Source: Hydractinia symbiolongicarpus (Eukaryota; Cnidaria; Hydrozoa; Anthoathecata; Hydractiniidae). Taken from it: DNA of 64,000 nucleotides. Of the stretch, positions 4,767 through 36,600 are shown piece after piece. Where the stretch lies: positions 25,135,851 to 25,199,850 of the forward strand of contig NC_079877.1 in the NCBI RefSeq assembly GCF_029227915.1, in the 5' to 3' direction. How positions within the stretch are numbered: the stretch's first letter is position 1; every line of letters begins with the position of its first letter. The notes below the pieces were generated by a model. That model had not been told where the DNA came from. It saw nothing but the letters and a program-made list of their open reading frames with translations, and ran no database searches. A program made the position numbers and the translations under genes.

Positions 4767-4904
4767 TTTTTCATAACAGAACTATATATTTTAAAAATAA
4801 GAGTGTATTGGACAATGATCGCGGATGTTTACTTCATTTGTGTTATATTTTTTTAACTTATGCATAACAATCTAGGGTATACAGCTAGCGTTAATCTTTC
4901 TTTT

Positions 4905-5332
4905 TTAGATCACATTTTAAAAATTTAAGAACTAAGAACGGCGATAGAAAAGCTTTGTTAGATCGCATTTTAAAAATTTACGAACAAAGAACAGCGATAG
5001 AAAAGTTTTTTTAGATCGCATTTTAAAAGTTTAAGAACAAAATGCGGTGATAGAAATGCTTTTTTAGATCGAAGTTAAAAAGTTTATAAAAGAAATCCAG
5101 CGATAGAAATGTTTTTTAAGATCGCATTTTAAAAGCTTAAGAACGAAATGTGGCGATAGAAATGTTTTTTTAGATCGAATTTTAAAAGTTTTTATAAAGG
5201 AAAAGCGATAATAGAAATGCTTTTTTAGATCAAATTTTAAAAGTTTAAGAACAAAAAGCATAGAAATGCTGTTTTAGATCGCGTTTTAAAAGTTCAAGAA
5301 CGAAAAGCGGCGACATAAAAAGCTTCGTTAGA
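4905..5332. repeat. ~53-bp minisatellite, block 1
   Basis: About eight diverged units. Each contains TTAGATCGCATTTTAAAAG, then TTAAGAACGAAAAGCGG and GATAGAAATG. Units differ by substitutions and small indels. The same unit recurs at 7463-7690, on the other side of the 1.07-kb tandem duplication. Confidence 0.8.
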
Positions 5333-7462
5333 GACCACATTTTCAAAGTTTAAGGATGAAAGTAGCGTTAGAAAAAAAACATTGAAAAAGTAATGCGCTA
5401 GAATTACTTTAATAAATACGAAAGTTTAAAATTTTCTTATAATATACACCTATTTAAATAAAAAAAAAGATAAAGCAGAGATGTGTTTGAAATAAAAAAA
5501 ACTTTCTCTCTATTCTCATTAAAAAAGCTTTCTCTTTATTCTCATTATCACCACCATCGCGACACATCGAGACGGATTTTGTAACAATACTAGATTCTCG
5601 ATAGATAGCGACAATTTATTTTAACTGTTTCTTATTATTATAAACACGGTACATCGCGTATCGAGGGAGTCCACGCATGTTGCGCGCTCGATATAGCAAA
5701 CAACCTTTTTCCAGTACTATATGTTACGAGGAATTGCATTTCGGGAATGCTCTGGGTGAGTTTGGGAAAGTGGAGGCGGTTTCGGAGGACATTCGCCAAT
5801 TAATTCTACATGCGGGCTTTTGCGGCTTATCGGCACCCTCTTTGTGGTGTGATGTACATTTACAGTAAAACTCTTATAAAATCATTTCAGTGAAATTTGA
5901 CATTAGAACCTTTCTGGGGGAACCCTCTTTGTCACAAGTTATTTTATATTTAAAAGTAATATCTAACCTCGATTTTATGTTACAGTACAGTCCAGATGTA
6001 AGCGTACGCGTACGCTCAAGTTTCACACCTTTTTCTCGGAGGCGGTAGTTGTTTGTCTTTTGTTCTTATTAATTATCTTGCGAGTCTTGTAAGTCATTAA
6101 CTTGCGCGTAATAAACAAAAGATTATCGAAGAAAAAATAGCTTATTATAACTGCGCGTGACTATTGTTAAATAGTGTTAACATAACTATTCCCAATAGCA
6201 TAATTGCAAATGTTATCAACTATATCAATGTGACATGAAGAGTCATTGTTTAATATTTTTTTTAAACAAAAGTTTTGTGTGGTAACTAAATAAACTAGCG
6301 AGAAGGCATTGTTGGTTGCGCAGGTTAAATAAAGCTTAAGCGATAGAAATTATTATATTTTAAGAAAGATTGAAATTTTAATTTTGATAGAAAAGCTTTT
6401 TTAGACCACATTTTCAAAGTTTAAGAATGAAAGTAGCGTTAGAAAAAAAACATTGAAAAAGTAATGCGCTAGAATTACTTTAATAAATACGAAAGTTTAA
6501 AATTTTCTTATAATATACACCTATTTAAATAAAAAAAAGATAAAGCAGAGATGTGTTTGAAATAAAAAAAACTTTCTCTCTATTCTCATTAAAAAAGCTT
6601 TCTCTTTATTCTTATTATCACCACCATCGCGACACATCGGGACGGATTTTGTAACAATACTAGATTCTCGATAGATAGCGACAATTTATTTTAACTGTTT
6701 CTTATTATTATAAACACGGTACATCGCGTATCGAGGGAGTCCACGCATGTTGCGCGCTCGATATAGCAAACAACCTTTTTCCAGTACTATATGTTACGAG
6801 GAATTGCATTTCGGGAATGCTCTGGGTGAGTTTGGGAAAGTGGAGGCGGTTTCGGAGGACATTCGCCAATTAATTCTACATGCGGGCTTTTGCGGCTTAT
6901 CGGCACCCTCTTTGTGGTGTGATGTACATTTACAGTAAAACTCTTATAAAATCATTCCAGTGAAATTTGACATTAGAACCTTTCTGGGGGAACCCTCTTT
7001 GTCACAAGTTATTTTATATTTAAAAGTAATATCTAACCTCGATTTTATGTTACAGTACAGTCCAGATGTAAGCGTACGCGTACGCTCAAGTTTCACACCT
7101 TTTTCTCGGAGGCGGTAGTTGTTTGTCTTTTGTTCTTATTAATTATTTTGCGAGTCTTTAAGTCATTAACTTGCGCGTAATAAACAAAAGATTATTGAAG
7201 AAAAAATAGCTTATTATAACTGCCTATTGTTAAATAGTGTTAACATAACTATTCCCAATAGCATAATTGCAAATGTTATCAACTATATCAATGTGACATG
7301 AAGAGTCATTGTTTAATATTTTTTTTAAACAAAAGTTTTGTGTGGTAACTAAATAAACTAGCGAGAAGGCATTGTTGGTTGCGCGGGTTAAATAAAGCTT
7401 TTAAGCGATAGAAATTATTATATTTTAAGAAAGATTGAAATTTTAATTTTGATAGAAAAGCT
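5333..7462. repeat. ~1.07-kb tandem direct duplication (two near-identical copies)
   Basis: Copy 1 (about 5333-6403) and copy 2 (about 6404-7462) are head-to-tail and differ by only a few substitutions and short indels. Each carries a 63-codon open frame (5677-5868 and 6747-6938) with identical translation; these begin at TTG and I do not regard them as genes. Each also carries the perfect palindrome AGCGTACGCGTACGCT (5999-6014 and 7070-7085). Near identity indicates a recent duplication or assembly-level tandem copy. The unit is bracketed by the ~53-bp minisatellite. Confidence 0.85.
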
Positions 7463-7690
7463 TTTTTAGATCGCATTTTAAAAGTTTAAAAACGAAAAGC
7501 GGTGATAGAAATGTTTTTTAGATCGCATTTTAGAAGTTTAAAAACGAAAAACGGCAATAGAAATGTTTTTTTAGATTGCATTTTAAAAGTTTAAAAACGA
7601 ATAGCGGCGATAGAAATGTTTTTTAGATCGCATTTTAAAAGATTTAAAACGAAGAGCGGTGATAGAAATGTTTTTTTAGATCGCTTTTTA
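7463..7690. repeat. ~53-bp minisatellite, block 2
   Basis: Four to five further units of the minisatellite seen at 4905-5332 (AGATCGCATTTTAAAAGTTT ... GATAGAAATG). The last unit runs directly into the Gln/Thr-rich open frame at 7690-7850. Confidence 0.8.
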
Positions 7691-8051
7691 AAAGAAACAA
7701 GAACACAGAAACAAGAAAAACAACATGGCGCAACAACAACAACAATAATACAAAATCAACAGAAACAGCAACAAACACAACAAGAAGGCAACATTAAAAA
7801 AACGAAAGTATCTGTCCAAAAAGAAGCAGTGCGTATATTAAATAATAACTTTTTAAATTAACTAAAAGATTTAGAGAAAAATCTTGCATCTTGCAACATC
7901 TAATATTATTCTTTCAGGCTGCTGTCATAAATTTTGCCGCTGGTTCCGGAGAAGTCCTCAGACTTCGCGAACAAATTTTAAACGAAACACCGGAAAATAA
8001 TTCGTGTCCATCATGTAAGATTCGTCACCTAAACCAGTTTCGCCACTAATT

Positions 8052-8495
8052 TTGCCACCTGCAACAACACCTAGACAGCAAATTGCACCAACCTTTTCAA
8101 TTCATCAACCACCACCTCCGTTTATCTCAAACCATCATTTGAATATGCCGCCATACATTTCACCTTATCCACAGCATGGACTGTTTTCTCCGCCACACCA
8201 ACCATTTTCTCCACTGCACCAGCCATTTTCTCCACCACACCAGCCATTTTCTATTCCTCCACAGCACAGTTTCAATCACATTCCTTCCAACTCATATTTG
8301 ACCGACGACGTCATCTTGTATGCGCGCAATCAATGTGGTGACAAAATAGGAAATTTTGCGACAAGACTAATGAAAAAGATTTTCACCGTAGAGGAGAGAA
8401 AGGGAAAAAACGTTTTTGGTATGAACAAAATGGGGAACGGTAAACAAGTTCAAAAAGAACCTTTAGACAGGGAAAAAGTTGAGTATATTAAGTAG
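8052..8495 (+). CDS. BEN-domain-like protein, Pro/His-rich N-terminus, partial
   Basis: A 147-codon open frame ends at TAG. The first ~75 residues are low-complexity Pro/Gln/His with repeats of FSPPHQP. Residues ~80-147 (start SNSYLTDDVILYARNQ, then FATRLMKKIFTVEE, NVFG, LDREKVEYI) match the pattern of a BEN domain: an amphipathic helix, a Leu/Phe-Thr-x-Glu-Glu turn, N-V-x-G, and L-D-x-x-K-x-x-x-I near the end. BEN domains bind DNA or chromatin and occur in both host factors and transposons. An upstream acceptor at 7917 opens a different frame (AAVINFAAGSGEVLRL ... CPSC), so exons do not join cleanly. The flanking minisatellite and palindromes suggest this belongs to a mobile element. The true start and intactness are unknown. 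Confidence 0.4.
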   Translation: MPPATTPRQQIAPTFSIHQPPPPFISNHHLNMPPYISPYPQHGLFSPPHQPFSPLHQPFSPPHQPFSIPPQHSFNHIPSNSYLTDDVILYARNQCGDKIGNFATRLMKKIFTVEERKGKNVFGMNKMGNGKQVQKEPLDREKVEYIK

Positions 8496-13415: not shown

Positions 13416-16400
13416 CTTATTGGATGAGATGACTGATGGTGCAGAGGTCACTATGGTTGAAGCAGATGCAATTGAGAGAATTGTGGACCAAAAGAAATTT
13501 GTAACTATTTTATTTAATTTATTATGTTTATTATTTTTTTTTGTTTTTTTTAAGGAATAAAAATAAACTACAATGTGATGTTATGAGACAAGAAAACAAA
13601 ATGAAAGTAAAGCCATGGAAGGAGGAAATCCTAATTGAACCAACATTTTGAACACTGAATCTTTGTAAAATCAGCATAATTCCTACATGATTTTATTTTT
13701 GAATAAATAAGATCTCTGTCATATTTTTTCAGCTATTTCGCTACCTGTCCACAGCAAATTGCTAGAACACCCAGTTGTTTTTTGCTTATTTTTTATCTCT
13801 TTTTTTTCATGCAGTTGTTAACTTCAATTATATTTTATTTTGTGTGTGTAACCAATAAGCCTTTTTGTATACAATATCTGGAATGTGCTGCAGGTGTTTC
13901 CTTTCTTTTTTACGCAAAAAGAATAACAATAACAGGAATAACAATCATTGTACAAATTCCGAGAAAATTAACAATTAGACAGCAAATATAACACCTGCTG
14001 CATTATTGCCTGTAACTGAATCACCTTTTAAAAATAACAAGGCCTGGAATGACAAAACATTTTTTCATACCACTAAAGAATTTCTTTTGTAGTATGGAAC
14101 AGAGAAATATAATACGGTGAACTAGAACAATAGTAGTTTTCATAAATCTTCTTGCATAGGGTGAAGAAGTGCATTATAAAATCAGATGGAAAGAAAGCTG
14201 GGTTCCACGCACAAAACTAACCCACTGTTTTAAACATATCGAAGAATATTTCCTTGAGGTTTGTTAACTTTTAATATTCTGTCAACAGAACTGAAATAAA
14301 GTAGGCAACAGTTTTTGAGATTTCTGATATGTTTCGCAGTTTAACTTAAAGATTAGTATATAAAGCACACATTGCATGTCCATTTGTTGAATAACAAGAT
14401 TCAACTGCTTGCCGTAAGGTCTTACAAACAGTGGATAAATCTGATATTTTAATAAAAATGAGCATGTAATTTTAGTCTTAAGATAATGAAAATGGGAAAT
14501 AAATAAAATGGAGAACTGACGTCATCTGCGTGTGTAATCAATTTTTTACAGCTGAGTTAACCTCTATTAGAATCAAGAACTTTTACATTTAAAAAGTTCC
14601 TTGAGTGTTTGTTAAACTATTTGTTAAAACAACAAAGAGCATGTAGAGCCTGAAACACTGATTAAAATGATGTATAGGGTACACATTACTTTGACCAGTA
14701 TTTCAAGCACTACTAAAGAAATTTTTGTATTTGCGTTGCTGATTTCATCAAAATTCCCTCTTTATATTTTCTGAGGTAATCTTTCCACGGCATTAACAAA
14801 TATGTACATATTTGACCAAAATGTTTAGTGAATAATATTTTATATTACACATGCACAGCACACACAAGTTTTCTCATGAAACCGTAGCAATAGGCAGCCT
14901 TGCCTACAGGTAAATATATAAAAATACATTTTTTCAGACCTAAAATTAAAATAGTAGAAAATATCAGCATTTTGTAAATGACATCGAAATTATTAATGAT
15001 AAATAAATCTGAGAATTTTTGCAATTAATTAAATAAATAAACTTTATCAAAAAACTGAAAGACTCGTTAATTGTAACTTTATATTACATATATAAATAAG
15101 ACTTCTTTTTTAAGTTCCAGTTTTTGAAGTTGGAAAATAAAAGAAGCCGAACACAAAGACCTCTGTTCTAATTGAATTGTGCTACACTCTTGCAACAAAA
15201 CAAAAACTGAATTTAATTGTCATTTTAGAAAGCTAAAGATGTCGAACCAAAACCTCAAACAAATCCTTTAAATGTTCAAGAAGAAGAAGAACAACAAGAA
15301 AAAGATCTTGTTGTTCCAAATGAAGCAGAACTCAGAACGAACTTGGATGATGTGGAGGTGGCTAAAGTTATTTCAGATGTTGAAGCATTAAATCTAGATA
15401 CTCAAGAAAAGGAGGAATCAGTTGATTGTAAACCTGGTAGGATTTGAAATTTGTTCAATATTTTTATTTAATATTTTTATTTTATATGTAATAACCACTA
15501 CTAGCAAGCATTTTAGAGGGAAAACTTGAACTTGAAAAAAACACTTTTGATGATCATAATTATTTATTTTGCAAAAATTAAGCCTGATGCAATTAAAGAA
15601 CAGTGACGTATACTACCAATTGGAAAGCTTAATCTTGGCTAGTATTAAGCAACTCATAGTTTTCCTTCCAAACCCTCTCTTCTAGTTTCCAATCTGTGTT
15701 GCAAGAAAAGAACAATGCTGATTATGAGTATTTTTTCATTTTTTAGGTTCTAATATATTTCTCACACCAAGGCTTCTTAAAATACGTTAACAAGAATATA
15801 AGAAAATATAAAATGCATTCAAGAGTTTTTTTCCTTTGCGCTGTAAAAATACTTCTTAGATTTTACATAGCTTATTTGAACACCTGTTTATTTTATTTTC
15901 TGTTTCTATTTTACTAGACAATAAGGTTGAGGCTAAAGTTGAAGAAAACCCTGCAATCGTGAGTGCATCCAAAGTGGATGCACTAATTAAAAAGCCTGGT
16001 AAAGCATTGATTTATTTGTTATTGTCTGTATAACATCAAAATTATTTATTATTTAAATCTACTGTAAACGAAATGTATTTAAAAAACAAAACAAAAAATT
16101 TTTTCTGAATTTTGTCAAAGAAATGCCAATTTCTTTGAAGGGAAAACTATTTTTTCATTTTGTCAGCTTCAAATGTGATTTTTTAAGGATAATGATCATA
16201 CATTTAAATAATTTCGATTTTTGTCCACTGATCTTTCACTTTCTGAAATGTTAGTTATTTACAAAAAAATTTGTTTAGTGGCTAGTTGAATTATGCTCCC
16301 AATATTACATCATGAAGTCAAAGTTTGAAGTAAAGAAACACCCTTTGTAAAAAAAGTAACATAACATAAACAAAAAAACCTTGTTACACCCATGTATCAT

Positions 16401-17992
16401 GATTCTAAATGATATGAGATTAGAACTGGGTACAAAGTAGTTTTGTAAATAATGTTGTTTTGGTGAAGCATGTATGTGTTTTTCTAACTCTTTTTAATCT
16501 TTTTTAATAAAAAAAAACAAAATAATTTTTATATCTTTGAAAAGGTTATTTAATACATTTTGAATGATTTAAGAATGATAAAATGTAAAATGACCTGTTT
16601 TTTTTTGTTTTTTTAAAAAGCGAATTATAAGAATTATGCTCTTTTTCTTTACAGTAGCCTTAAGAGGTTAAGAAAAATTTTTAAGTAGAACTAAATTCAG
16701 CTCTTTTTTAAAAATGGATTGAAATTAATCACTTGCATATCTTCTGACCACATTTACATGTTAAGCTTTCATTTAAGATATACAAATTCCTGAAAGTCAA
16801 TCTTGGTATGCAAATGAGAATGTGAGAAAGCAACTACTTAAGTTTTATGACAAGTTTGCTAAAACACCAACAAAAGAAATTAACAAGGCAAAGGTGAAAC
16901 ACGAGATTTACATGAAGATGCTTGAAGTTGAATTGAAAGAAGAAGGATGGTGCAAAAAGCTAGAATACACTGGTTCATCATACGAAGGTCTTAAGATTAC
17001 TGAAGATGGGCTTGAATTTGATGTGATGTTTGTTATTGATGGTAAAGGCTTGGAAACCTCACCAATTCCTAATAGGGAAGGTTACTGTAACCTCCACATG
17101 CAAGAGGGTGTGGTTTCAAAACTTTTTGCATCGTTTGGCAATCAGGAGGGAATGTTGATGCCAAAGAAAATGATCTCTGAGTTCTTTAGTGTTTTACAAC
17201 GAACAATAAACAAACTGAAATATGAAAAGTTGTTCAAGTTGAGAATTCATGGCCCTGCTGTTCAAATGGATGTAAACGACGACAAGGGAAATTTTTGGTA
17301 CAGTGTAGATTTAGTCCCATCTGTTGAGGTTAAAGTTGATGCATCAGGTTTGTTGACATTTCAAAGTAGTTTTCTATTACAAGCATAGAAAAAGTATTTT
17401 CAATGTTTGATTTTAAGTCTACGTGTTCGAGTCATTGACTTGAAAGATCAAAAGTTGTTGTAAGTTTATGATAATATGACAAATGTAAAACAGCAAACTA
17501 ATGTGAGACATTCCGATTTTCCTTTGATCTTTAGGTAAAGTTGATCGTTTCGTCCCGAAACCCATTAATGAGCCTGAGATTGGAAATTTGTTGGAAAATT
17601 CTTGGCGATGTTCGTTTTCTAAGAAAGAGAAAGATTTACTTAAAGGTTTGGATACAGATAACGGATGTCGACGACAAGTTGTGCGGATAATGAAAACTCT
17701 TTGTAAAAGAGAGTCCACTTTGAAGGCACTGACGTCATATCATCTGAAAACTGTTTTATTTCATATGCTACCTGTTGAGCTTTCTTGGAAAAGTATTGAT
17801 CTTACAGAAAGGCTTTTTGATATGCTAGGAGCCCTGGAGTTCTATTTATCAAATCGAAATTTACCACAGTATTTCATTCCTTCCATGAATTTGATTGCAA
17901 CAATGAAGCCGACACAGTTAGCAAATATCATTGATCGCATAAAAACTCTTCGTACAAGTGAGAATAAGTTTATCAAGGCAATTAACTTTTAA
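13416..17992 (+). CDS. Chromodomain-cGAS-like receptor (cGLR1), Mab-21 nucleotidyltransferase
   Basis: Six exons: 13416(ATG 13429)-13500, 14160-14258, 15229-15436, 15918-15998, 16778-17347, 17535-17992. Phases agree throughout and from the ATG they give 495 aa. Residues ~14-57 form a chromodomain-like fold (AIERIVDQKKFGEEVHYKIR, then WKESWVPRTKL and a C-terminal helix). Residues ~58-153 are an acidic linker. Residues ~158-495 are the Mab-21/cGAS-like enzyme: G219-S220, then E233-F-D235 and D331 in SVDLVP align with human cGAS GS, E225, D227 and D319. The C-terminal half has the Mab-21 pattern (SWRCSFSKKEK, SYHLKTVLF, YFIPSMNL). Family members synthesise cyclic or linear oligonucleotide second messengers after nucleic-acid sensing, usually feeding STING. 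No zinc-ribbon insert is seen. Only one of three chromodomain cage aromatics (the Trp) is visible, so methyl-lysine binding is doubtful. The start could lie further upstream. Confidence 0.72.
16778..17992 (+). CDS. Catalytic core exons of cGLR1 (NTase lobe plus Mab-21 C-lobe)
   Basis: This two-exon block has the same architecture as those at 21712-23300 and 26282-28091. The first exon begins in phase 1 just before a conserved Trp (SQSWY here, AEEWH in gene 2, TQPWY in gene 3). It carries the whole nucleotidyltransferase lobe including HGPAVQMDV. The intron after DASG (phase 1) is at the equivalent position in all three genes, showing descent by duplication. The stop is followed by a poly(A)-signal-like AATAAA at 18134-18139. 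This part is certain even if the upstream chromodomain exons were wrong. Confidence 0.9.
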
Positions 17993-18133
17993 TTTACTAA
18001 TATTACTTTAGAAGTAGATATTGAATATTTAAATTTTTCTAAACCATTTTCACTTCAAATTCTACATACAATCTTCATTCCACTATTGTGCGAGAGTATA
18101 TGTGTGGCGTAACTTGATTGTATGAAAAGTTAA

Positions 18134-18139
18134 AATAAA
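18134..18139 (+). terminator. Poly(A) signal candidate for cGLR1
   Basis: AATAAA lies about 140 bases after the cGLR1 stop codon, in otherwise unremarkable 3' sequence. Position and sequence fit a polyadenylation signal; no transcript evidence is available. Confidence 0.45.
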
Positions 18140-21100
18140 CAATATTTTAAGCAATCAACATTAAAAATTAGTCTTGTTTGTCATATTTAATTTCTTGTTT
18201 TAAATAATTAAACCTCCATTTTTTAGGTCATTGTGTGAAATGATATTTCATCTTGAAAAGTAACCATTTACAATCCCACTTGGTTATTATAAACCTGTAA
18301 GGTTTAAAGCACGTTCTGGTAACTAAACAATTTGATCCTTCCTTTTTTTCCTTTCTTTTCTTTTCTTTCAATTTTTTTTTTCTTTAAATTTTTTTATTTT
18401 CTTTAAATTAAGCTTTTTTGAGTTCTCTCTATTCTTGGATATGGAAAGGTTCATGAATATCAGACCATATTTTGATGATTTCTGGACATTGGTATCAGTT
18501 GTTTTAAAATTATCAGAAAATGTTTATGAAAAATAAGTTTTAGACGTAGCGTTATAGTCAGAAGTTCCCAACTATGAAATCTCTGTTTCATAACAGCAAA
18601 TATTGACAAGTTATTATCATTTGTTTCAGGAACAATAAATTGATAAACAAGCGCAGAATTTTGAAATTGATAAAAAATGCTCTAAACTCCTTCTTTTTAA
18701 GAGTTATGTATTTTGCTTTGAATATGATGTCTTTAGGAACTTTCCTAACAAATTGGCATATTTTTTTATTTCCAGGATACAAAACTAAAGGTACTTTGTA
18801 GTTACAAAATTGTTACGTTATGTCAGTTTGTGATCCCAAAACAAAAAGAGACAAATAACTATTTTTTTAGAATTATTTTATATGAAAATACAGGTAATTG
18901 GAGCAGTACTGTATATCCTATGTAGAGCGAAAATGTGATAATTTCATAATAAAATTGAGATATTTTTCTTTGTAAATCTTCACTTCTAGTTTTTTTATTA
19001 TCAAATCTTGTCCAAAAGCATTTTAACACTTGCCTATGTTAAAAACAAATTATAAACTCAATACTTAATATGGGTCTAACAATTACATTTTTTTGAAAAA
19101 AGGCAGCAATAAGGTGCAGAATTTGGTTATGTAAATTTTTACGATTTTATCATTTTATTACCCCTAAAATTGTTTTTAGGCATTATTAAATAAGTCTTGA
19201 TATGCTTTTTATGCTCTTTACACAAAACAGGACATTTATGTAATTGAAAAATGAGTATCTGTATATGACATTCTAATAATTTTCGTTTGTTAAAAGTTTA
19301 TCAGTTTATTGTTCAAATACTCTACCACAACGGTTTTTTTTGGTATTTTGTCCAACTCAGCTTTTGAGAAACAAGCATACGCATCATCCCTAAAAATTTT
19401 TGCAAACAACTGGATTTAAAAAAAAAATTATGAGCAAACTTTGCTTTATTGTTGTTTGATATGTAAGAAGCTGTCCATATAACGTTAGAGTTACTTGTAC
19501 AATAAAAGATTTTCAATGGTACATTTTTTACAGTTCAAACTTGATTGATTAAGGTAAGATTTTCTCCTCTTTTCAAACTCCAGTGCTTTTATTTGATATA
19601 TAATGTAAACTCTAGATTACAAATACAATGAAGTTATTGTGTAAATGTACCTTCTATAGATAACAATATTTTTAAAAATTATTAATTTTGTTATTCCAGA
19701 GAGATAATGATTTTGCCACTTAAATCTATAATTCATTGTAATGTGTGTTTTTAATTTTCATAGTTTTTGTTGGATTTATGTTTTTAATTTATTAGCAATT
19801 TAAGAAAACGATTTTTGAATTTCCTGTAAAAAAATTATCCTGCTTTTTGTAGATAATAGTAAATTCTAAATACAAATGTTCCTATTCAAATTGTAACAAT
19901 CTTCAATAGAATATTTTCTTGACCATGCTAGTGACTTCTAAATTATTCTTGCTTCACAGGAAGAAAAGTGGGGGTTTCCTTGAGGAAAGAGCCCTTGGAA
20001 AACACTATATATAAATGGTCCAGTCTTTTGAAACAACAAAATAATTGTGTGAATCATAGCTGATAGTCTTTGATTAAATAAATGGGTAATTATGACTACA
20101 AGATTCCACTCTTTTTTTATAAGTTGTCCAATGCAGCAATTTTTATATATATATATATATATATATTTTTAGTACAACTAAAATAGTACAACTGAAATTT
20201 GGCATCCTATAAAAAAATACTATACCATTGACAGGTACGTATATACCATATTTATATCAAACTTTCTCTGTTTATTCTTTGGCATTCTATAAATCTAAAA
20301 ATGTTTCTTATTTATAGTCCAAATCATTTAGTTCGAACGTTTTTTCTTTACTTTCTCAAAATTTCTTCTAAAAAAGATGATTTTGTGTATCTAATTAGAG
20401 GTATCTTAAAAATACACAAATAAATAGGTCCCGACAGTTAATCTTTATTACCATGTTTAGCATTCATTGTAATTTGAAACGAGAAGAAAGTAACTGACTT
20501 TATTCTGTTTTTTACATCATACAAATGATTGTCAAGGGCTTTAAATTGATTGTTTGATAGTTAAGTTTCATCTTTCCAAAAAATGATTTTATTGTTTGAC
20601 TGTATTTTTTATAAAAAAAATTCTTATTTTCAAAATAGTCCTAACAATATAGTGGTAAAGGTTTCCTAATTTGTTAAGATTTTGCATGTAGTTTCTTTAT
20701 AAAATAATGTAAATCCCTGTTGCGCTTTTACTCTGGATGTTTTGCGAAATAACTAACTACAGCATTGCTTCTGAAAGCCGGTTGAGTACTTATGTTGTTA
20801 GAATCTTTTTGTCAAATAACCTCAAAATATTACCAATGTTTAGTATTCATGAAATTCCTCAGTTGATAAAAAGCATGAAAACCTAATAAATTGATTGCAC
20901 AGTGTATTCTTTAAAAAAAATTTTAATGGTTTTGATTTACAATGTTAGTAATTTGCTATGTTATGCAAAATTTTTTACGTACTATAACTAATATGTGTAT
21001 GATGTTTTGCCTCAAGGAAACCTGTGTAAATTATCCTGTCATTGTGCAATTGAGAAAAAGCAAAGCCTGTTTCTTTGTTGAGCTATTTAAAGAGTTTACC

Positions 21101-21200
21101 TAGAGGGTTGTGTAAGCACATTTTTACTTTTAAATTTTTTGTGTTTTTGTAGAATAGTGCTAATGCTGCAATAATGTTGTTGTTATGATAAATATTTCCA
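18140..21200. other. Intergenic stretch between cGLR1 and cGLR2
   Basis: AT-rich with T-rich runs (about 18330-18420) and a (TA)n microsatellite (about 20144-20166). I found no exon with good splice sites and coding character, so no additional N-terminal module for cGLR2 is supported before 21209. Confidence 0.5.
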
Positions 21201-21208
21201 GCAAGTAA

Positions 21209-23300
21209 ATGATGGCTTCCTCCTTTTGTAAGTCAAATATTTATGTAGGAAAAATCTCTTTTCTGAAAAATAATTTAATTCTTTGAGCGAAATGCCATGT
21301 TTAACCAAGTTGCTTTAGAAAGCATAAAAATACCTCTATGTATAGTTTAAGACTACCTTAAAAAAATGTTCAGGTTTTTAATTTCGCAAATCCTTTCACT
21401 TCGAACAAAAAGGAAAAACATAATACAATAAATATCCCCTTTGAATATATACCTCTTTATAAAATCAAGTTAATATGATAAAAAAAGTTATCTTTCAGAA
21501 ACTTGTGATATTTTCTTTTCTTTAATTTTAAGATTTATAAGAGAGAAATTTTGAAATTTGTGAAATTCGGGACGGTTAAGGTATAAAGGATTATGTGTTG
21601 CATTAGATAAAAATATGTCAACATTTCTTTTGTTTATAATGTTAAACATTGTTCATGCTTCTCCTTAATTTTGTTTTTTATGATTATTTATTACTTTTAT
21701 TTTCTCTGTAGCTCCATTGATATTCCCAGCAGAAGAATGGCATTCTAAAGAGACTGTGATCAATCAACTAATCCACTTCCATAAGAAGCTTGCAAAAACA
21801 CCTAATCTAGAGGAAGCAAAAAAACAGAATAATGCACATATCGACGATTTGAAGTCGTTTCTCAAAAAAGAAGGTTTGTGCAAGTACGTTGATTATACCG
21901 GCTCTGCATACGAGGGAGTGAAAACAACTGAGGGGGAGTTGGAGTTTGACATAATGTTTGTAGCCGATGGAAACGATTTAGAATTTACACCACTGCCAAC
22001 TGAAGATGGCTATGTCTACATTCACAATAAAACCGGACTGAGTAGTTTGAGCAAATTTGCAGACAAGAATAACAATCAACTTTTGCCAAAACGTTTCTTA
22101 GAAAAGTTCTACAGTGTTGTTGATAAGTTTATAGACAAGCATAAATACCGGGGGATCATGAAGTTAAGGAATCATGGCCCTGCTGTGCAAATGGATGTGA
22201 TGCACAAAGATGGAAGATTATGGTACAGTGTGGATATGGTGCCTGCTGTTGAAACTCGCTGTAGTAAGTACCTGCTTGATTTACAACCAGAAGCACTTGA
22301 CACATAGATTTCTTTTTCTTCTTTTAAAAAAACCTTACTATAAACTACACTGGTCTGATGACCCTTAGAAAATTACACTGACAGTGAGCAAAACCATAAG
22401 ATCGATTTTAACAAGTGGTGTTACGTAAAATTTAATATTTTGACAGTGGTTTTTAGGATTGAAGTATATATAATATATTGTCAAAGAGTTAGGTTATAAT
22501 CAGGAAGTTCTGAAATGTCTTTGTATGTAAAGAAAATGTCGATCATGTTTGAATTTGTAATTATATTTCATTTTTAAGCAAAAATTGATTTCTTACAAAA
22601 GTGTTACAAAATGACAGAAAATAAAAATTAGATTTAGATTTTCAAAAAAAGCCAGTGCTTGCAAAGAACTGCGTTATGTTTGTGCTGGCTGCTGATTCTT
22701 ACGATAATATTAAAGAATAAAAAAGCTACTAAAACTCTCCAATAAAATCTGTCTGCCTGTCTGCTTGCCACTTGTCTATCCGTCCAACCGTTCGTCTGTT
22801 TTTTCTCTTTGTCTGTTAATCAAAATTTTTGTTTTACAGGTCATGATGTTCTAAGATATGTTGCCAAGCCCTTGGATGATGATGAAGCCACTTGGAGACA
22901 GTCGTTTTCCAAAGAGGAAAAAAAATTTCTGCAAAACCTAGACAAAAACAACAGCTGCCATCGGCAGGTTTTACGCATTTTAAAAACTCTATGTAAACGT
23001 GATTCGACATTAATGACGTTGAACTCATATCTTTTAAAAACTGTTTTATTCCATTCTGTTCAACATTTGGAGTTATCTTGGAGAAGCAGTGATGTGGAGA
23101 AGAGAGTTTTTTCAATGCTTGGTATTATTGAAAATTATATTACGAAAAAGCGTTTACCCCATTTTTATCTACCAACAGTGAATCTTATACACGATTTTGA
23201 GCCTCAGCAAGTTAGATGTATTTGTAACAGACTAAAAAACCTTCGAACGAAAGAAAAGAAGTTTATGAAAGCTTTTGAAGTAGACAAAGAGAAAACTTGA
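21209..23300 (+). CDS. cGAS-like receptor (cGLR2), minimal Mab-21 nucleotidyltransferase
   Basis: Three exons: 21209-21227, 21712-22263 and 22840-23300, giving 343 aa. The tiny first exon encodes MMASSF and ends in a consensus GTAAGT donor. It is the only candidate found that fits the phase-1 acceptor of the core, and TAA sits directly upstream in frame. The protein is therefore almost only the enzyme core. Catalytic residues are conserved: G70-S71, then E84-F-D86 and D181 in YSVDMVPAVE, equivalent to E225/D227/D319 of human cGAS. The C-lobe shows TWRQSFSKEEK, SYLLKTVLFH and LPHFYLPTVNL. Length and layout fit a compact invertebrate cGLR with no extra domain, probably cytosolic. The activating ligand and product cannot be read from sequence. 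Confidence 0.82.
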
Positions 23301-23474
23301 GGGAAAGATGTTTTTGTATGAATTAATTCGTAAAAAATTCGTACCTTGAGATGTTGACTAAATTAAAATCCTAAATATAACCAAATCCATGCAAAATTTT
23401 ACCCGAATTTTATGGTGAAAGGAGGAGTGAATTATTTGTCATAATTAAGATAAGGTTTTGTTGTTGTTTTTGCA

Positions 23475-23740
23475 GACCCACTGATGGCTTTGTAGTAGAG
23501 TGTTTGCATCACTGCCAAAGGTCTTGGGTTCAAACCCTGGTTGAGTTATGCCAGAGGCTTTCAAAGTGTGAACCTATCCTTTCTGCTTAGTACAGGAATA
23601 AGATTAATATCTTAGTGTTTTTCTAGCTGAGCAGCTGCTGTGCTATCAGCTAATGCACTGGGGCCCCCTTTGCAGGACCTTCATTGATAACAGTACTATT
23701 AGAAATTAAAGAGGCTATCGGGGGTAAATAATAAAAATGG
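23475..23740 (+). mobile_element. tRNA-derived SINE
   Basis: The head has a Pol III A box (TGTAGTAGAGTGT, about 23491) and a near-perfect B box (GGTTCAAACCC, 23527-23537) at tRNA-like spacing. It is followed by a body with AATGCACTGGGGCCCCC and a weak A-rich end. It lies 170 bases past the cGLR2 stop on the same strand and could contribute to its 3' UTR. Confidence 0.55.
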
Positions 23741-24791
23741 AACTTGCAAAAGAAATTTCCCCAAAAAAATTATTTATACTAAATAGCCCACTATTTGACT
23801 AGATGTGACTCAGAAATACACCTAAATATTTAAAGTTTTATTGGTCACCAGATCTATACATCTTTGCCCCAAACCGCAATTCAATGTACGCATTTCATGA
23901 GCCACACCTTATAAAATTTTATTTATATTTTTACATCAATTTTTTAAACAAGTTAATATTATAAATATATAATAAAGTATAAATTTTTATGTAATCTTAT
24001 TTGGAGAATTTTATTTGATTTCTAACTTATTTAGAATTGTAATTTTACCCATGTAAGTTTTGGGTCTCTACACAGATAAGGCTAGTTTTACACTGACTAA
24101 ATAATCTTTTAGTTACAAAGTAGCAGTGTGGTTTGGTTTTGGTTGTTCCAGGCTTTAGCTGTTATTATTTAGTTGAAAGTTCTAAACATTTCAGTTTAAA
24201 GAAGCCTGATGAACTTATTTATTTGTCTGGGTTTTTTTATTTCATGTGTTTTTTACATGAGAAAGCGTATCTTGCCAAATCTGTGCTCTTTTTTTTGTTA
24301 TTTTTTTTAAAAACTTTGTCAATCAGCAAGTGAAAATAGTTTCAAATTTTAAGTTAATTGTTAGTTCATGCATTTTGTTTGTTTTTTAAAAAATACCAGA
24401 TTGTGTTGTTATCAACTCAAAGTTACCCTTTCTAGAAGAAAAATGGTAAATACTTGCTGATACTTTCTCAGTTTTTCGGTTAGTGTGTGTGAGAATATTT
24501 CAATGAAGAAATATCAATTGCTTTCTGAAGTCTTTAAACAATTTTTTTCAAAGGTTTAAAATTGCCAGGAAAAAGCAACTTCTCAGAACATATGGAGTAC
24601 ACAATAAAAACAATCTCCCACTACCATAAAACATCAGATCAAAATTATAAACAAGGATCACTGAACTGGGTTCGATTTATTTAATTGTTTGTTTGTTGTT
24701 CTTATTGTTGTTGTTATTGTTTTTGTTGTTTTTTAAATGTAAGTTTTTAAGTAAATGTTGTATCCTGTGTTTTTAGGTCTGTATAAGAAAA

Positions 24792-27700
24792 ATGAGGGCT
24801 TTTTTAAATTGCATTTTTTTACTGTTGTGTTTCATTGCAATCACCAGTGATATTGGAACAGCTGCAGCCAAGAAAAGTCTAACAAATGTGAGTTGTTTAT
24901 TTGATTTGTTTGTTTGTTTGTTTTGTTTGTTTGTTTGTTTGTTTGTTTGTTTGTTTGTTTGTTTGTTTGTTTGTTTTGTATTAAATATAGTAGCTATTTC
25001 TATATGAATAGTTTTTATTTTCTCTGGTTCCTTCATGTTACTGGAGAATTCCATGAACTGAAGCGTTGAAAATAAATTACTATGACTTTTTCAATAATGA
25101 TACTGGAACAATCGTCATAGTTGTTTTGTCTTTCATTTGATCAATGCTGTCGTTTGGTTGCTCATATTTTTACTGTTTTCTATTTATTTGACATTTAAAA
25201 TGATATTTTAAAAAAAATATCTAGCCTTTTTAAAACCAATCTGTCGCACTGATTTTATTGAGCTTCAAATCATCTTCCAGCGTTTGCCCTTCGTGCTAAT
25301 TGGCAGAGACACTAACACTTAACCACCCCTTCTCCTTAAAACAAAAGCTTTTTAGGGTACTGTTTATAGCTTTCCATTTTTTCTTAGCGTGTTGATAAGA
25401 AGGGCCGAAGCGAGAAGTGTAAGTGTGGTTGTTTGACCTTTTATACTGTCTATACAATATCTGTGTCTGAGAGAGGGGTTTATTTAAAATACATCAATAA
25501 ACTTAGCAATATGGGAAATTTGGACGTTCATTTTTGTAAAAAAAATTTTTGAATTACAAGTGAACTTTCAAATACACTTTCAGTGATAGATTTTTTCACA
25601 AATAGTCTTGGACAGATTTTTTTTTTATCATTTTTCAACAAAACCAATTCTGTTTTAGTTCTTTTTAACTCTTTTTCCCATTTTTGATAAAAAATTTTCC
25701 ATCCCTAACCTTTTAAAAAAAATTGTCCCAAATGACATTACTTTTCTCCTCTGTTTAAACACTGTTCACACTCTATAAACATCTCTGTGCAAGAAGTATA
25801 AGTCGTTTCCATTTATATTTACTTTGCTTTTTAAGGTACTTTAAAGCATCCACTGGAAGGAGAAAAGAAAAATAAGCCTCCAAAACAAAGTAGGTATCCT
25901 GTTGAATTTAATTTTTTGTTCACTCTGTATTTTTCTCTTCATCCGGTAATTATCCTGTACAAAACAGATTAAAATTATTTTCCTTATCCTCCCCCAAATT
26001 TTTTTTCTCCTTATAAATTTTGAGTCCCCTTAGAATTTGCCTGAAAGGAGAGGTCACAAAGGAGAGACTCGAATCGAGAGACTGGTAATTTTGTAAATAT
26101 ACTGCTTTTTCGCGCCCCTAAGTTTCGTTGCCCCTATGTTTGGTGCCCCTTGTGTTCCAGAATCTGTTCGCCGTTATCGACTGCTGCCGATTTCGTGTTT
26201 CGTGAAGCGCGGAATTCTTGCTGATCTTCTCAAAATTTAGAAGCGAATAAAAAATATGATTTCTCCAATGTTTCTTTTTAGTTTGTCTTCCTGAATTACC
26301 ATCGACTCAACCATGGTATAATAAATCTACCTTGGATTCCATCCTTATTTATTATTATAACGCAAATGCGAAAAACCCCTACGAAGAAATGAAGAAAGCC
26401 AAACCAGAGTTTATCAAAGACATAAAACTTCTTGAAACGCGTTTGCGAAATTTGGATTGGTGCAAGAAAGTAGAATATACGGGCTCGTCATATGAGGGGC
26501 TGAAGATAAGCGAAGATGGTCTGGAGTTTGATGTTATGTTTGTGATAGACGGAACAGGTTTGGAATTAGTATCCATTAAAGGGCAGGAAGGTTACACGAA
26601 TTTTAAGGCGAGCACGAAGGCCTTGCGTATGTTGCAGGAATCTGCAGGTTCTACAGGCTTCTTGTCACCGAAGCTAGTCAACTCAAAGTTTTTTGGGGCT
26701 GTGAAAAAATGGCAAAATAAAGTTGATCCAACTGGGCAACGCATGAAGTTACGCAACCATGGTCCTGCCACCCAGATGGATGTGTTTAATGGTACAAAAA
26801 AGGTTTGGTACAGTGTAGATCTGGTGCCAGCTGTCGAAATAAAAGATAATGGTTAGTTACGTTCGCAAATTTCGTTTTAAAATGATTTGCTAGAATGTGG
26901 CCATTGTGTGGATCTTTAGCACAGAGTCACTATTTCGTGAACTTTTAGCACAGAGTCACTGTTTCGCGAATCCTTAGCACAGAGTCACTTATTCGTGAAT
27001 CCTTAACATAGAGTTGATTTGTGGCCGTTTTTTTTAAACAATGCGGGTATAAATAAAAGGCGAATAGAATACAGGTATAAAAATTAAAGACATTGATTTG
27101 ATATTTAAAATACTTTTTGTTAATCGAGTTAATAAAATATGCCATGAAACTTTTTTTTAAGTCGTGCAAACTTTTTTTAAGCTGTACAAACTTTTTTTAA
27201 GCCGTACAGTACAAACTTTGGTTTTTTGTTTACGTTTAGCACTCGTAATATGCCATGTTACGCTATTAACTGCCAATATTCTGCAATGTTGAGGTACTTC
27301 TTAGTGTCAAGGGGTGGTTATGATTTTCGCTTCATTATCAAGAGGTCTAGTTTAATTCACAGTGCGGTAATATGTTTGACAAGTGCCATAACCACAGCAA
27401 CAGACTAACCCATGGCATGTGAGTTTAATTGGGTAGGCAGTCACTATGTATATCTAAACATTCAAAACTAAGGACCCACAATAATAACAGTGTTTCAAAG
27501 TTTTAAATAAATAAATAAATAACTTATTTACTAGGTGAAGTGAAACTATACATACCAAAGCCTTTAAAAAATGATAACACAACATGGCGTCGCTCTTTCT
27601 CGAGAGAAGAAAAAAGTATTCTAAAGACCTTGGACAAAGGAAACGGTTGTAGACGGAAAGTGGCCCGTGTAATTAAAGCCATGTTTAAAGGTGAACCTAC

Positions 27701-28091
27701 ACTACGCCCTTTCACATCTTACTACATAAAAACCACACTTCTCCTGACAATACAATCATTCCCAGATATGAGCTGGAAAACAAGTGATGTGACCGAGCGA
27801 GTCTTGGATGTTTTAGGGGCAATCGAGTTTTACCTGAAACAAAGATATCTTCCACATTATTTCATCCCATCCATAAACCTGCTCGTAGATATGAAGGAAC
27901 ACGTGAAGTTAAACATGTTGAAACGAGTCAGATCGTTACGACGTTACGAGGACAAGTTCGTGAAAGCCATCGACTTGCGCTACAAACTTCGCGGCGAAAC
28001 AAGTGGTGATAAAATGGAAAACGGGATGCATGTAATGTTTGCTATTATTATTTTTTTGAAACCGATTTTGAGCATTTTTTTTAACTTTTAA
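24792..28091 (+). CDS. cGAS-like receptor (cGLR3) with N-terminal signal sequence
   Basis: Five exons: 24792-24887, 25388-25418, 25836-25889, 26282-26851 and 27535-28091, in phase, giving 435 aa. Exon 1 encodes MRAFLNCIFLLLCFIAIT followed by SDIGTAAA-KK, a textbook signal peptide (short basic start, ~14 hydrophobic residues, small residues before the likely cut). Exons 2-3 are a basic linker. The core keeps G128-S129, E142-F-D144 and D240 (YSVDLVPAVE), so catalysis looks possible. The C-lobe shows TWRRSFSREEK, SYYIKTTLL and LPHYFIPSINL. The last ~20 residues (FAIIIFLKPILSIFF) are hydrophobic and could be a tail segment. Secretory or ER targeting is odd for a cGLR but known in the Mab-21 superfamily (ITPRIP-type proteins). 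The 31- and 54-nt exons are the least certain part. An acceptor at 24776 suggests a 5' UTR exon upstream. Confidence 0.72.
24899..24979. repeat. (GTTT)n microsatellite
   Basis: About 20 tandem TTTG units, immediately after the splice donor of the cGLR3 signal-peptide exon. Confidence 0.95.
26912..27015. repeat. Short tandem repeat, ~28-bp unit
   Basis: Three to four units of TTAGCACAGAGTCAC followed by TATTCGTGAA, in the intron between the two core exons of cGLR3. A T-rich repeat (AAACTTTTTTTAAG, three units, about 27147-27205) follows. Confidence 0.7.
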
Positions 28092-30540: not shown

Positions 30541-30990
30541 TAATGAAATATTCCCTAGTGAACATTTAACTTTAGTCTGCTGTTTTCGAAGCAAGAAATA
30601 TTCCCTAGTGAACATTTAACTTTAGTCTGCTGTTTTCGAAGCAAGAAATATTCCCTAGTGAACATTTAACTTTAGTCTGCTGTTTTCGAAGCAAGAAATA
30701 TTCCCTAGTGAACATTTAACTTTAGTCTGCTGTTTTCGAAGCAAGAAATATTCCCTAGTGAACATTTAACTTTAGTCTGCTGTTTTCGAAGCAAGAAATA
30801 TTCCCTAGTGAACATTTAACTTTAGTCTGCTGTTTTCGAAGCAAGAAATATTCCCTAGTGAACATTTAACTTTAGTCTGCTGTTTTCGAAGCAAGAAATA
30901 TTCCCTAGTGAACATTTAACTTTAGTCTGCTGTTTTCGAAGCAAGAAATATTCCCTAGTGAACATTTAACTTTAGTCTGCTGTTTTCGAA
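30541..30990. repeat. 50-bp minisatellite, nine units
   Basis: Nine head-to-tail 50-bp units (GCAAGAAATATTCCCTAGTG followed by AACATTTAACTTTAGTCTGC and TGTTTTCGAA). Units 2-9 are identical base for base. The first differs at its first few bases, and a truncated tenth starts at 30991. Confidence 0.98.
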
Positions 30991-30994
30991 GCAT

Positions 30995-33150: not shown

Positions 33151-33603
33151 CTATAGGGTCATAGCTGAAAAAACACCCTCCTTCCCAGTGCATACCACAT
33201 CGATCCAAATACTCATAGCAACAGGCGAAGAAGCGGATAACACATACGTCCTCTGCGGAGTGCGCACACAAAATGTCGTTTTAGGATTTGGACTTCTTTT
33301 AATACTCGAATCTACGTATACTTCTTGGATGGATTGGAAATATAAAATCCCTTTTGATTTCGTTTTCCTTTCGTCTTGATAATAACATAGTGCTCTTAGT
33401 TTACGGTCGAATACAAACCACCTTTTTTTCCAGGAAATTTTCAGTTTAGATTTTCCCATTTTTAAAAGGTAGCCTCGGCACGAGTATCTATTTATTTTCA
33501 CGCTTGGACAGTTTTCGACCACGTGACCTGCAGCTTGGATATTGTGAAGCAAGTTGATTTCTTCTGAGTTTCCGGACGAATGACCGGACCGAAGTGATAG
33601 GGT
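33151..33603 (-). CDS. PHLDB/LL5-type PH domain, terminal exon
   Basis: The last exon (150 codons plus TAG) contains INLLHNIQAAGHVVENCPSV, CRGYLLKMGKSK, WKKRWFVFDRKLRALCYYQD, KGILYFQSIQEVYVD, SPNPKTTFCVRT and AMSIWIDVVCTGKEG. Each block matches the PHLDB1/2 PH domain (CRGYLVKMGG, SWKKRWFVFDR, KGVIYFQAIEEVYYD, SPNPALTFCVKT, AMRIWMDVIVTGAEG). In that family the domain binds phosphoinositides, notably PIP3, and puts the protein at the basal cell cortex. The basic K/R cluster before strand beta-3 is kept. Confidence 0.93.
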   Translation of the reverse strand, partial: TLSLRSGHSSGNSEEINLLHNIQAAGHVVENCPSVKINRYSCRGYLLKMGKSKLKISWKKRWFVFDRKLRALCYYQDERKTKSKGILYFQSIQEVYVDSSIKRSPNPKTTFCVRTPQRTYVLSASSPVAMSIWIDVVCTGKEGVFSAMTL

Positions 33604-36600
33604 CTAAAAAAAATAAAAAAGCTCGTTCTGAAGCAACGTTTATTTATGATTAGTCGTCAACCCGTGGAAAAACCCACGGGGTCGCCAGTCCATTTTATAT
33701 CACATTTCGTGTTTTTGTAACAGAAAGACAAACAGGCGCACGGACAGACAGACAACGGCTATTATTAAACAGATGCTACTTATGCACGTACTCAGTATGA
33801 GACATTTATTCCCTTTCATAGGCAGATTAATTTTTATGTTTGAGTTCAACACCGCAATTTGTTTTACAGGTTTTGAACCTGTTCCGTAAAATACTCTTCA
33901 GGCTTAAATGCTAGTATATTATCACTAGTATAAAAAAGTTTAGGCTACCGAAAAAATGGTAGCCCCAAATTCCTTAAACAATTCCTAAATAAATAAATAG
34001 CACGCGGCAAAATATACAAATTGAATTTCTTCTTCCATTTTTACTTACATAGGAAGGAACTCTTCGTTTCAGCGTTCCATTGTTACCGGTACTGAGCGTG
34101 CCGTTACTTCTAGTATCGTGCGGCTTTTTCTTCTCTTCGTTTATCAAACGGTTTCGCGTTTCTTCTTCGTGTAACCTGTTCAGGAAAAAAAAATGTGATT
34201 GTAAGTTGCTCAGATTAATAACGTAATAAAAAACCGCCCAAATTACACCAGTCTTAAGAGGGCTGTAATATTTTCGTCCGATAAACCACACAAGTTCAAA
34301 AATTAAATTGCATGACAATGTTGTCAATTTTTTAAGTTGAAAAAAACATCTAGGAAAATTCAGAATGAATGGCTTTTCCAGGAGTTCGTAGAGCAGTTTT
34401 AAGTTTTAGATTTAATCCCATGAAGTATCTAATACGTCTTTCTATTGAAAAGACGTATTATGCCTTTTCGAAAACAGCAAGAAGTCAAAGTAATTTAATT
34501 TCCAGGGCGATCCACGGCAATTTAGTCCCCAAAAATTTTTTTTTAATCAGGTACAACAATGAAAGGTTAGGAAAACATGTACATTGCTTACCTTCTTTCG
34601 ATCTCCAACCTTTTCGATCTCTCCTCCGCAAAGCTTTTTTCTAACGTGGTCAAACGCTCTTTTTCTTCGTTCAACGTTTGCTCTAGTAGGTGTTCGTTGT
34701 TTTTTTCATTCTGCAACATTCGTTCTAGCTCTTCTCTTCGCTCTCTCTCCTTGTGAAGTTCAGCAAGCTCCTTCTCTCGTTGCTATAAACAAAACAAAGG
34801 AAATTCACTGCAAATGTTGCAACAATAAAAAAGTATAGGATACACAGAAAACTCACCACCAACAGAACTTTGATGAGAAAAAGTGGACGAAGAGGCATGA
34901 TGCCTGAGCAGAGAGATAATGCTGCAGATCGAAGGTATTTCAGCAAGAAACTAAGCTAGGCAATATAAATGCCTTTCTAAACATCACAAGGAGCCTCCCC
35001 ACCTGCGATTTCCATTAGAATAGTTTTATTTATTACACATTATTTTTATTTTCCTTTATTTTCTTATTATTATTACACATTTTTTCTCTCTCCTTTTTGT
35101 TTTAATAGTAAGTATAAGATAAATTATTAAGGGTTGATGAATAAATAACACGCATTAGTAGATGTTTACATGAGTTCACAACAAAACAAAATCCACATGA
35201 AGCTTGTCTTCACGTGGTATTGTTTCAATGCGTGTGAAAAGCTATAGCGGCGACAACACCAACGCAAATACAATAAGATCACATCAAAACATCATCGACA
35301 TGAAGCTTGTCTTCATGTGTTACGGTATGGTTTCAATACGTATAGAAAGCTATGGCGACATCAACATTAACGCAAAAACAATCAACGCAGAATCGAAAAA
35401 AAAAATTTTTTCCTTGAGTGGGGTGCGATTAGTTGCTGGTTAATCGAGCAAAAATTATGGTATCGTAAATACTCGATTAAGCCATCGAAAATGATGATTT
35501 TACCAGTTTTAGCATCAGTCTTCTTTTCACTTAATATCTTTGATCGTTGTGGTCTGTTGTTTTGTTTATTTTTTTAGCCTGTGCATAAGCGTGCGCAAAT
35601 CTATTGTTCTCAATATAAAATCGAAACAGTACGTCACGCTAATTTATCTATAAATAGGCACTTTTAAGGCTTCACTTAGAAATATTAACATGACAAATCA
35701 AGGGATGTTGGAGGAAGGAAGTTTAAGCAAGGAAAAAACTAGGAAAAACAAATTCATATGACATATGTTATGAAGCGATACTCACCGAATTTGAAAACAT
35801 GTATACAAAACAAGCTTTCTTCTCGCCACATTGTTCCCATTGATTAAATAAAGTTATATTTTGCAACGAATAAGGCGATCTGATTGGTTGAGAAGGCAAA
35901 GACGACGTTCCATTTTCATCCGATATCATTTTAGTTTTTTTTTCAAAGTTAACATTTACATTTTTAGGTGAAGACTTTATTTTCTTATAACTTTTTGTTT
36001 TTCTTTTTACGTTGCTATGGAAACATGAAACTGAAAAGGGTAACATGCTATTACACTAGTGATAAATTCTTTTGCACAAATTATTTCCGTGCATGAACAC
36101 GATATAATCAAGTTTAACGATCTCTTATCGGTTGATTATCGTTTAAAAAAATCAAAAGTGTAGACCTTTACGCGTAGGTAGAAAAAAAATATGCTGTATT
36201 TTTATTACGACTAATAATTTTAAAATGCCACTTATTTCCCACTATTTCTCCCAATGTTAGAAGATTTGTTTTTTATGTGTGTCCGGCATGATAACATTCG
36301 AAAATATTCCGGACTAAACATTGTCGCTTAAAATTTTCGTCACCCTTGAATAATACGTCATTTTCATCCAACAAGGTTTCTTTTTTTTTTCTAGAAATTT
36401 GTTTGTGCTTTTTCTCTAGTTAAAACTAAAACTGGAACAACTTAATATCAATCCAGATTTAAAACAAGTTATATTTATAATACAAATCCGCCATTTTATC
36501 TTCTCTTTTTCCTCTCTCTCCAAAACTGAATGAAGCGACTTGAGAAAATATTTTCTTTTCTCTACTTGAAAATTCATATATACACCTTGTGAACACTAAT

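Follow-up and report, generated by a model that had tools for sequence, protein, structure and literature searches.

A tandem triplet of cGAS-like genes with different candidate N-termini in Hydractinia symbiolongicarpus

A stretch of 64,000 nucleotides from the genome of the hydrozoan Hydractinia symbiolongicarpus (assembly GCF_029227915.1, contig NC_079877.1, positions 25,135,851 to 25,199,850; the whole stretch is called the window below) was analyzed, and translation together with splice-site inspection revealed three tandem plus-strand genes of the Mab-21/cGAS fold, here named A, B, and C, at 13,416-28,091. The gene A model comprised six exons and 495 aa, the gene B model comprised two core exons and a candidate first exon (343 aa), and the gene C model comprised four exons and 421 aa; all three joined models read through without a stop to the terminal stop codon. 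The genes have a two-exon core in common. In gene A, core exon 1 (16778-17347, +) encodes the nucleotidyltransferase lobe with the GS and E-x-D...D motifs, and core exon 2 (17535-17992, +) encodes the helical HhH lobe and the stop (Pfam Mab-21_C, 1e-19). The corresponding exons of gene B are located at 21712-22263 (+, entered in phase 1; Pfam Mab-21, 6e-13) and 22840-23300 (+, with the stop; Mab-21_C, 2e-15), and those of gene C at 26282-26851 (+; Mab-21, 4.6e-15) and 27535-28091 (+, including a C-terminal extension; Mab-21_C, 1.3e-17). Matches to both Mab-21 and Mab-21_C were above the curated cut-off in all three genes. Three consecutive plus-strand genes with a common two-exon core had been proposed by an initial annotation of this DNA, and they were found where it had placed them.

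The intron positions and catalytic residues of the core were conserved. Two phase-1 introns recur in each gene, one upstream of the core Trp and one after the V-D-x-V-P-x-V-E motif, with GT donors and AG acceptors. The E-x-D...D residues in the spliced models are E233/D235/D331 in gene A, E84/D86/D181 in gene B, and E128/D130/D226 in gene C. These results confirmed, for all three genes, both the common introns and the intact catalytic triad described earlier. The core identities were 49% for A-B, 49% for A-C, and 41% for B-C. The proportion of differing synonymous sites (pS) was saturated in the core pairs (0.78-0.84), whereas the nonsynonymous proportion (pN, 0.35-0.39) was not, indicating that the duplications are old and that the proteins have been held under purifying selection. 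Because the introns are common to the three cores, they are most simply older than the duplications. The possibility that the genes are pseudogenes was rejected, since no stop interrupts the joined frames and pN is lower than pS. The isoelectric points (pI) of the cores were 9.03-9.65, which would fit a response to nucleic acid. A tblastn search with gene A, the core of gene B, and gene C found no further copy of this kind in the window, with all other matches at E 0.17 or worse.

By sequence, genes A, B, and C fit the animal cGAS-like receptor (cGLR) family. The excerpted text of a published survey gives the animal cGLR motif as h[QT]GS-X8-20-[DE]h[DE]h-X50-90-h[DE]h (PMC9980059), and we found YTGS-X12-EFDV in A and C and YTGS-X12-EFDI in B, followed by an h-D-h (MDV) at X79-80. 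Homology extended over both the NTase core and the helix bundle at the C-terminus, which is a further criterion in the same excerpt. Predicted structural homology to a cGLR/CD-NTase was found for gene A, the one gene that was modeled, and its helical lobe matched the fold of MiD51 and then that of cGAS. The best PDB sequence match for A, C, and a three-core profile was Sp-cGLR1 of the coral Stylophora pistillata (PDB 8gjy), which has the same two lobes and, in the Foldseek rows, is 37% identical to gene A in the helical lobe and 21% identical in the nucleotidyltransferase lobe. Human cGAS has the GS/E-x-D...D layout and the fold in common with the three proteins, but its helical lobe carries a cysteine-rich insert that is gapped in them. 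A match to L22 ribosomal proteins in the profile search (E 0.009) was treated as chance.

Four exons precede the core in the gene A model. Exon 1 (13429-13500, +) carries the ATG and the first part of a chromodomain-like module (24 aa, ending in phase 0), exon 2 (14160-14258, +) carries the remainder of the module (33 aa, phase 0 to 0), exon 3 (15229-15436, +) encodes an acidic linker of 69 codons (phase 0 to 1), and exon 4 (15918-15998, +) is a symmetric 1-1 linker exon of 81 nt. Codon-composition scores were compared with those of 2000 open control stretches, matched in length and drawn from portions of the window that were not masked; the training set for the score included the cores of genes A, B, and C themselves. 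As high a score was reached by 0.85% of the controls for exon 1 and by 1.0% for exon 4, and the score of exon 3 was matched by none of the 2000. An exon scan of 8.0-18.1 kb, which considered segments of at least 14 codons, placed exons 1, 3, and 4 within its top seven segments; exon 3 was the second-best segment and had the strongest non-core coding signal there. Three of the four upstream exons of gene A look coding, and exon 2 looks least so by composition.

The N-terminal 159 residues of gene A are acidic (pI 4.6, with 39 D/E and 22 K/R). Residues 1-65 matched the Pfam Chromo family (PF00385) with 22.7 bits (E 9.5e-5), and a PDB search with the N-terminus returned MPP8 (E 0.006) and CDYL-type chromodomains. 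The alignments with the chromodomains of MPP8 and CDYL2 are gap-free where exons 1 and 2 join and keep a Trp; a six-residue deletion relative to MPP8 comes later. In terms of fold, "chromodomain" is a fair suggestion for this N-terminus. Two designed TIM-barrel chains (E 3.6e-7 and 7.3e-7) ranked above MPP8 and were attributed to chance, because they contain repeated copies of which each single stretch is insignificant; an APOBEC1 match of this N-terminal stretch (18.0 bits, cut-off 27) was likewise treated as chance.

The start of gene B is more difficult to place. The candidate first exon MMASSF (21209-21227, +; phase 1 out) has a full GTRAG[TA] donor and is the only ATG-started phase-1 candidate with such a donor in 18.0-21.7 kb; its inner ATG fits too, so that it was counted twice. 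By eye, TTTCCAG precedes the ATG by 7 nt, but the acceptor criterion of 60% pyrimidines was not reached. No large N-terminal module was found for gene B, as the gene A N-terminus had no tblastn match in 18.0-21.7 kb and the exon scan of this region upstream of the core gave nothing above 1.7. Since all of the cores are entered in phase 1, the gene B core could take the 5' exons of another gene, and gene B may be without a start of its own.

In gene C, a signal-peptide-like exon 1 (24792-24887, +; 32 aa, phase 0 out) was identified by hydrophobicity, and a short basic linker (14 aa, phase 0 to 1) was assigned to exon 2 (25847-25889, +). Exon 1 was the only signal-like hydrophobic N-terminus among the 20 first-exon-like open reading frames (ORFs) in the window (5 on the plus strand and 15 on the minus strand), and ten order-2 Markov simulations gave an expectation of 0.4 such N-termini per 64-kb strand, or 0.2 with a small-x-small site. 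A site of this type follows the hydrophobic stretch, and lysines follow the single hydrophobic segment; the N-terminus could act as a signal that is cleaved off or stay uncleaved and anchor the protein in the membrane. The codon score of exon 2 was reached by 2.2% of the controls. In the exon scan of the gene C region, two unrelated segments (6.0 and 5.4) ranked above exon 2 (4.5), and exon 1 was absent among the segments listed. Exon 2 was placed because the step from phase 0 to phase 1 requires it. It depends on the acceptor at 25847; an alternative at 25836 is richer in pyrimidines and is out of phase with exon 1. AG acceptor-like sites precede the candidate ATGs of genes A, B, and C at distances of 13, 7, and 15 nt (by eye), an arrangement that would fit a spliced leader or very short 5' untranslated exons.

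Gene C also differs at its C-terminus, a feature absent from the initial annotation. A 37-residue extension with a hydrophobic end runs past the shared core (27978-28088), whereas gene A has none and gene B has a few residues. The mean Kyte-Doolittle value was 2.5 over 17 residues, and 0.6% of 4953 overlapping reads outside the three genes were as hydrophobic. The signal and the tail together suggest a putative membrane-tethered lumenal protein, against which count a Lys-Pro interruption, the lack of a coding signal in the tail, and the readiness with which AT-rich 3' sequence reads as Phe/Ile/Leu; by eye, the tail has no ideal omega site for a GPI anchor. The numbers of N-glycosylation sequons and Cys residues in the core (3 and 2 in C, 0 and 5 in A, 2 and 6 in B) lend weak support to a lumenal gene C product, though gene B also has two sequons with its six Cys residues.

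The rest of the window was surveyed for neighboring genes and repeats. No linked STING or other immune gene was seen in a Pfam scan of 7 of the 16 non-core ORFs of at least 105 aa plus one shorter ORF, a scan in which short exons would be missed; the matches above the cut-off were to PH and kinesin only. The PH domain (33151-33603) belongs to a set of coding ORFs on the minus strand at 33151-47373, with long coiled-coil-like ORFs at 44716-47373, which look like a PHLDB/LL5-type gene, and the kinesin motor fragment lies at 59114-59467 (-; Pfam 3e-10). Upstream of the triplet, a proline-rich open frame at 8019-8495 (+) had no Pfam match at E up to 1; its end is reminiscent of a BEN domain. Tandem repeats were observed at 30545-30993 (nine copies of a 50-bp unit, 100% matches) and in two arrays of a related 52-53 bp repeat at 4900-5313 and 7450-7694. 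Known RNA families and tRNAs were not detected in the window at default thresholds.

On balance, the locus is probably a tandem cGLR array of old origin, each copy of which carries a different 5' part. The three cores with their two common phase-1 introns point to an ancient tandem duplication of an ancestor in which these introns were already present. As in the family generally, double-stranded nucleic acid would bind the basic surface of the core, the two-metal site would make a cyclic dinucleotide from two nucleoside triphosphates (NTPs), and receptors of the STING type would respond to it. After duplication, each copy would have gained a 5' part of its own at one common phase-1 boundary, namely a chromodomain-like and acidic part in A, almost nothing in B, and a hydrophobic signal or anchor in C. 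These N-termini would most likely change the location, partners, or autoregulation (including autoinhibition) of the same enzyme; in gene C, the likely effect would be entry into or anchoring in the endoplasmic reticulum membrane.

Several observations weigh against this reading. The Asp aligned with the catalytic Asp of cGAS (SVDL/SVDM) lies at X92-93, just past the published X50-90, and the structure models were of modest confidence (predicted local distance difference test 65), with the gene A lobes folded separately from 3-row alignments. In gene A, the codon score of exon 2 was weak (7.2% of the controls as high), the exon scan of 8.0-18.1 kb did not include this exon in its list of 14 segments, and the exon 1 donor was weak (5 of 9), although the ungapped MPP8 alignment over the exon 1/2 junction supports that splice. 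The Chromo score stayed under the gathering threshold of 25.1 (14.6 bits for the whole of A and 22.7 for residues 1-65). The methyl-lysine cage of MPP8 is formed by Phe59, Trp80, and Tyr83, according to the excerpted text of PMC3192050, and by the MPP8 alignment gene A keeps one of the three aromatics (Trp34): Asp13 takes the position of Phe59 (one residue beyond the printed alignment), and the six-residue deletion removes the stretch with Tyr83. With two cage aromatics gone, the module is unlikely to read methyl-lysine by the established mechanism, and recruitment to chromatin is doubtful; docking to a protein partner would be its likelier role. For gene B, 0.8 ATG-donor pairs were expected per 3.7 kb and 2 nested ones were observed; in 48% of 200 runs with simulated sequence at least one pair occurred per 3.7 kb, and 43% of the controls scored as high as the candidate exon, which has no coding signal. 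A pair of this kind is expected by chance, and MMASSF is indistinguishable from one. Gene C exon 1 also lacked a coding-composition signal (80% of the controls as high); a low codon score is expected of a hydrophobic segment, though composition then gives it no support. Moreover, in the excerpted text of PMC9980059 the cGLRs of one genome lie mostly in disparate parts of the tree, with insects as the stated exception, and a clustered triplet is thus not the general picture of that survey. The N-termini in the initial annotation therefore fared unevenly. The exons for a chromodomain-like module and an acidic linker on A were upheld, with a sub-threshold domain score and an incomplete cage, and targeting of A to chromatin through methyl-lysine is not supported; the six-residue exon on B exists as a candidate that chance would also supply; and the signal peptide on C is backed by hydrophobicity and not by codon composition, with a linker that hangs on the choice of acceptor.

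Considering these points, we weighed other explanations of the 5' parts. An ordinary tandem cGLR triplet, in which the 5' ends are independent new first exons with their own promoters (possibly with spliced-leader acceptors), little or no targeting, and no shuffled module, is a possibility of some substance, if short of an even chance. It is favored by the AG sites close to the three ATGs, by the noncoding-like scores of B exon 1 and C exon 1, and by the lack of tblastn similarity among the N-termini; against it stand the coding appearance of exons 1, 3, and 4 of gene A, the match of its exons 1-2 to a genuine domain, and a gene C signal that is rarer than chance. It appears unlikely that gene A exons 1-2 (perhaps also 3-4) form a separate upstream gene that is unjoined to core A in the mRNA. 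The link to core A rests on phase and open frames only, the frame of exon 2 meets a stop two codons beyond its donor so that a short separate protein is conceivable, and the plus-strand ORF at 8019-8495 also lies upstream; on the other hand, the six exons chain in phase without stops, exon 3 with its strong coding signal needs neighbors on both sides, and the core frame has no ATG before the Trp. Very improbable is the view that the three genes encode non-catalytic proteins of the Mab21L/MID type. MAB21L1 and MiD51 head the structural match lists, and MID51/MID49 are near the three proteins in sequence and in the fold of the helical lobe; however, E-x-D...D is kept in all three, MID51 is without E-x-D at the aligned place in the printed alignment, and the best sequence match is a cGLR.

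The orientation of the gene C protein is a related question. The chances are only slightly below even that, like the N-terminally anchored MID49/51, it sits in the membrane by an uncleaved signal-anchor, with the enzyme facing the cytosol, rather than being secreted. NTP substrates and STING signaling are cytosolic in known systems. The single hydrophobic segment followed by lysines fits such an anchor, and MID51 is one of the closest relatives in sequence and fold, whereas the small-x-small site counts against it and the sequon and Cys counts, set against those of gene A, weakly fit a lumenal protein. Exon shuffling with three-way targeting to chromatin, cytosol, and secretory pathway would be plausible; yet the same facts are explained if the copies gained their first exons independently once the tandem duplication had occurred, and shuffling, in the sense of ready-made exons being imported, goes beyond the evidence. 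A fully realized set of three compartment-specific cGLRs from one locus, with A at chromatin or nuclear partners, B bare in the cytosol, and C, with its signal peptide and hydrophobic C-terminal tail, at the lumenal or outer face of the membrane, where it would sense extracellular nucleic acids and make cyclic dinucleotides outside the cytosol, is decidedly improbable. We retain the tandem array with divergent 5' parts as the preferred reading: the observation of a tandem cGLR triplet is solid, and its functional interpretation is partly supported.

High numbers of cGLRs in cnidarians have already been published, and in the excerpted text of that survey 87% of cGLRs carry no added domain and architectures under 0.5% are pooled as "Other" (PMC9980059). 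The cGLRs with ankyrin, TPR, or death-domain fusions likewise combine the core with an added module; the fusions named in the excerpt are ANK, TPR, death domain, and cGLR-cGLR, and a chromodomain or signal peptide is neither among them nor described there for Sp-cGLR1. No chromodomain or signal-peptide cGLR was found among the literature matches listed, in a search that left supplements and subscription papers outside its reach. If the N-termini are real, duplicated cGLRs would diversify in their site of action as well as in ligand or product, and gene C would prompt one to ask whether a cGAS-like enzyme can function outside the cytosol. If they are not real, the locus would still offer a clean triplet of tandem cGLRs in which to study the division of ligands and products among paralogs.

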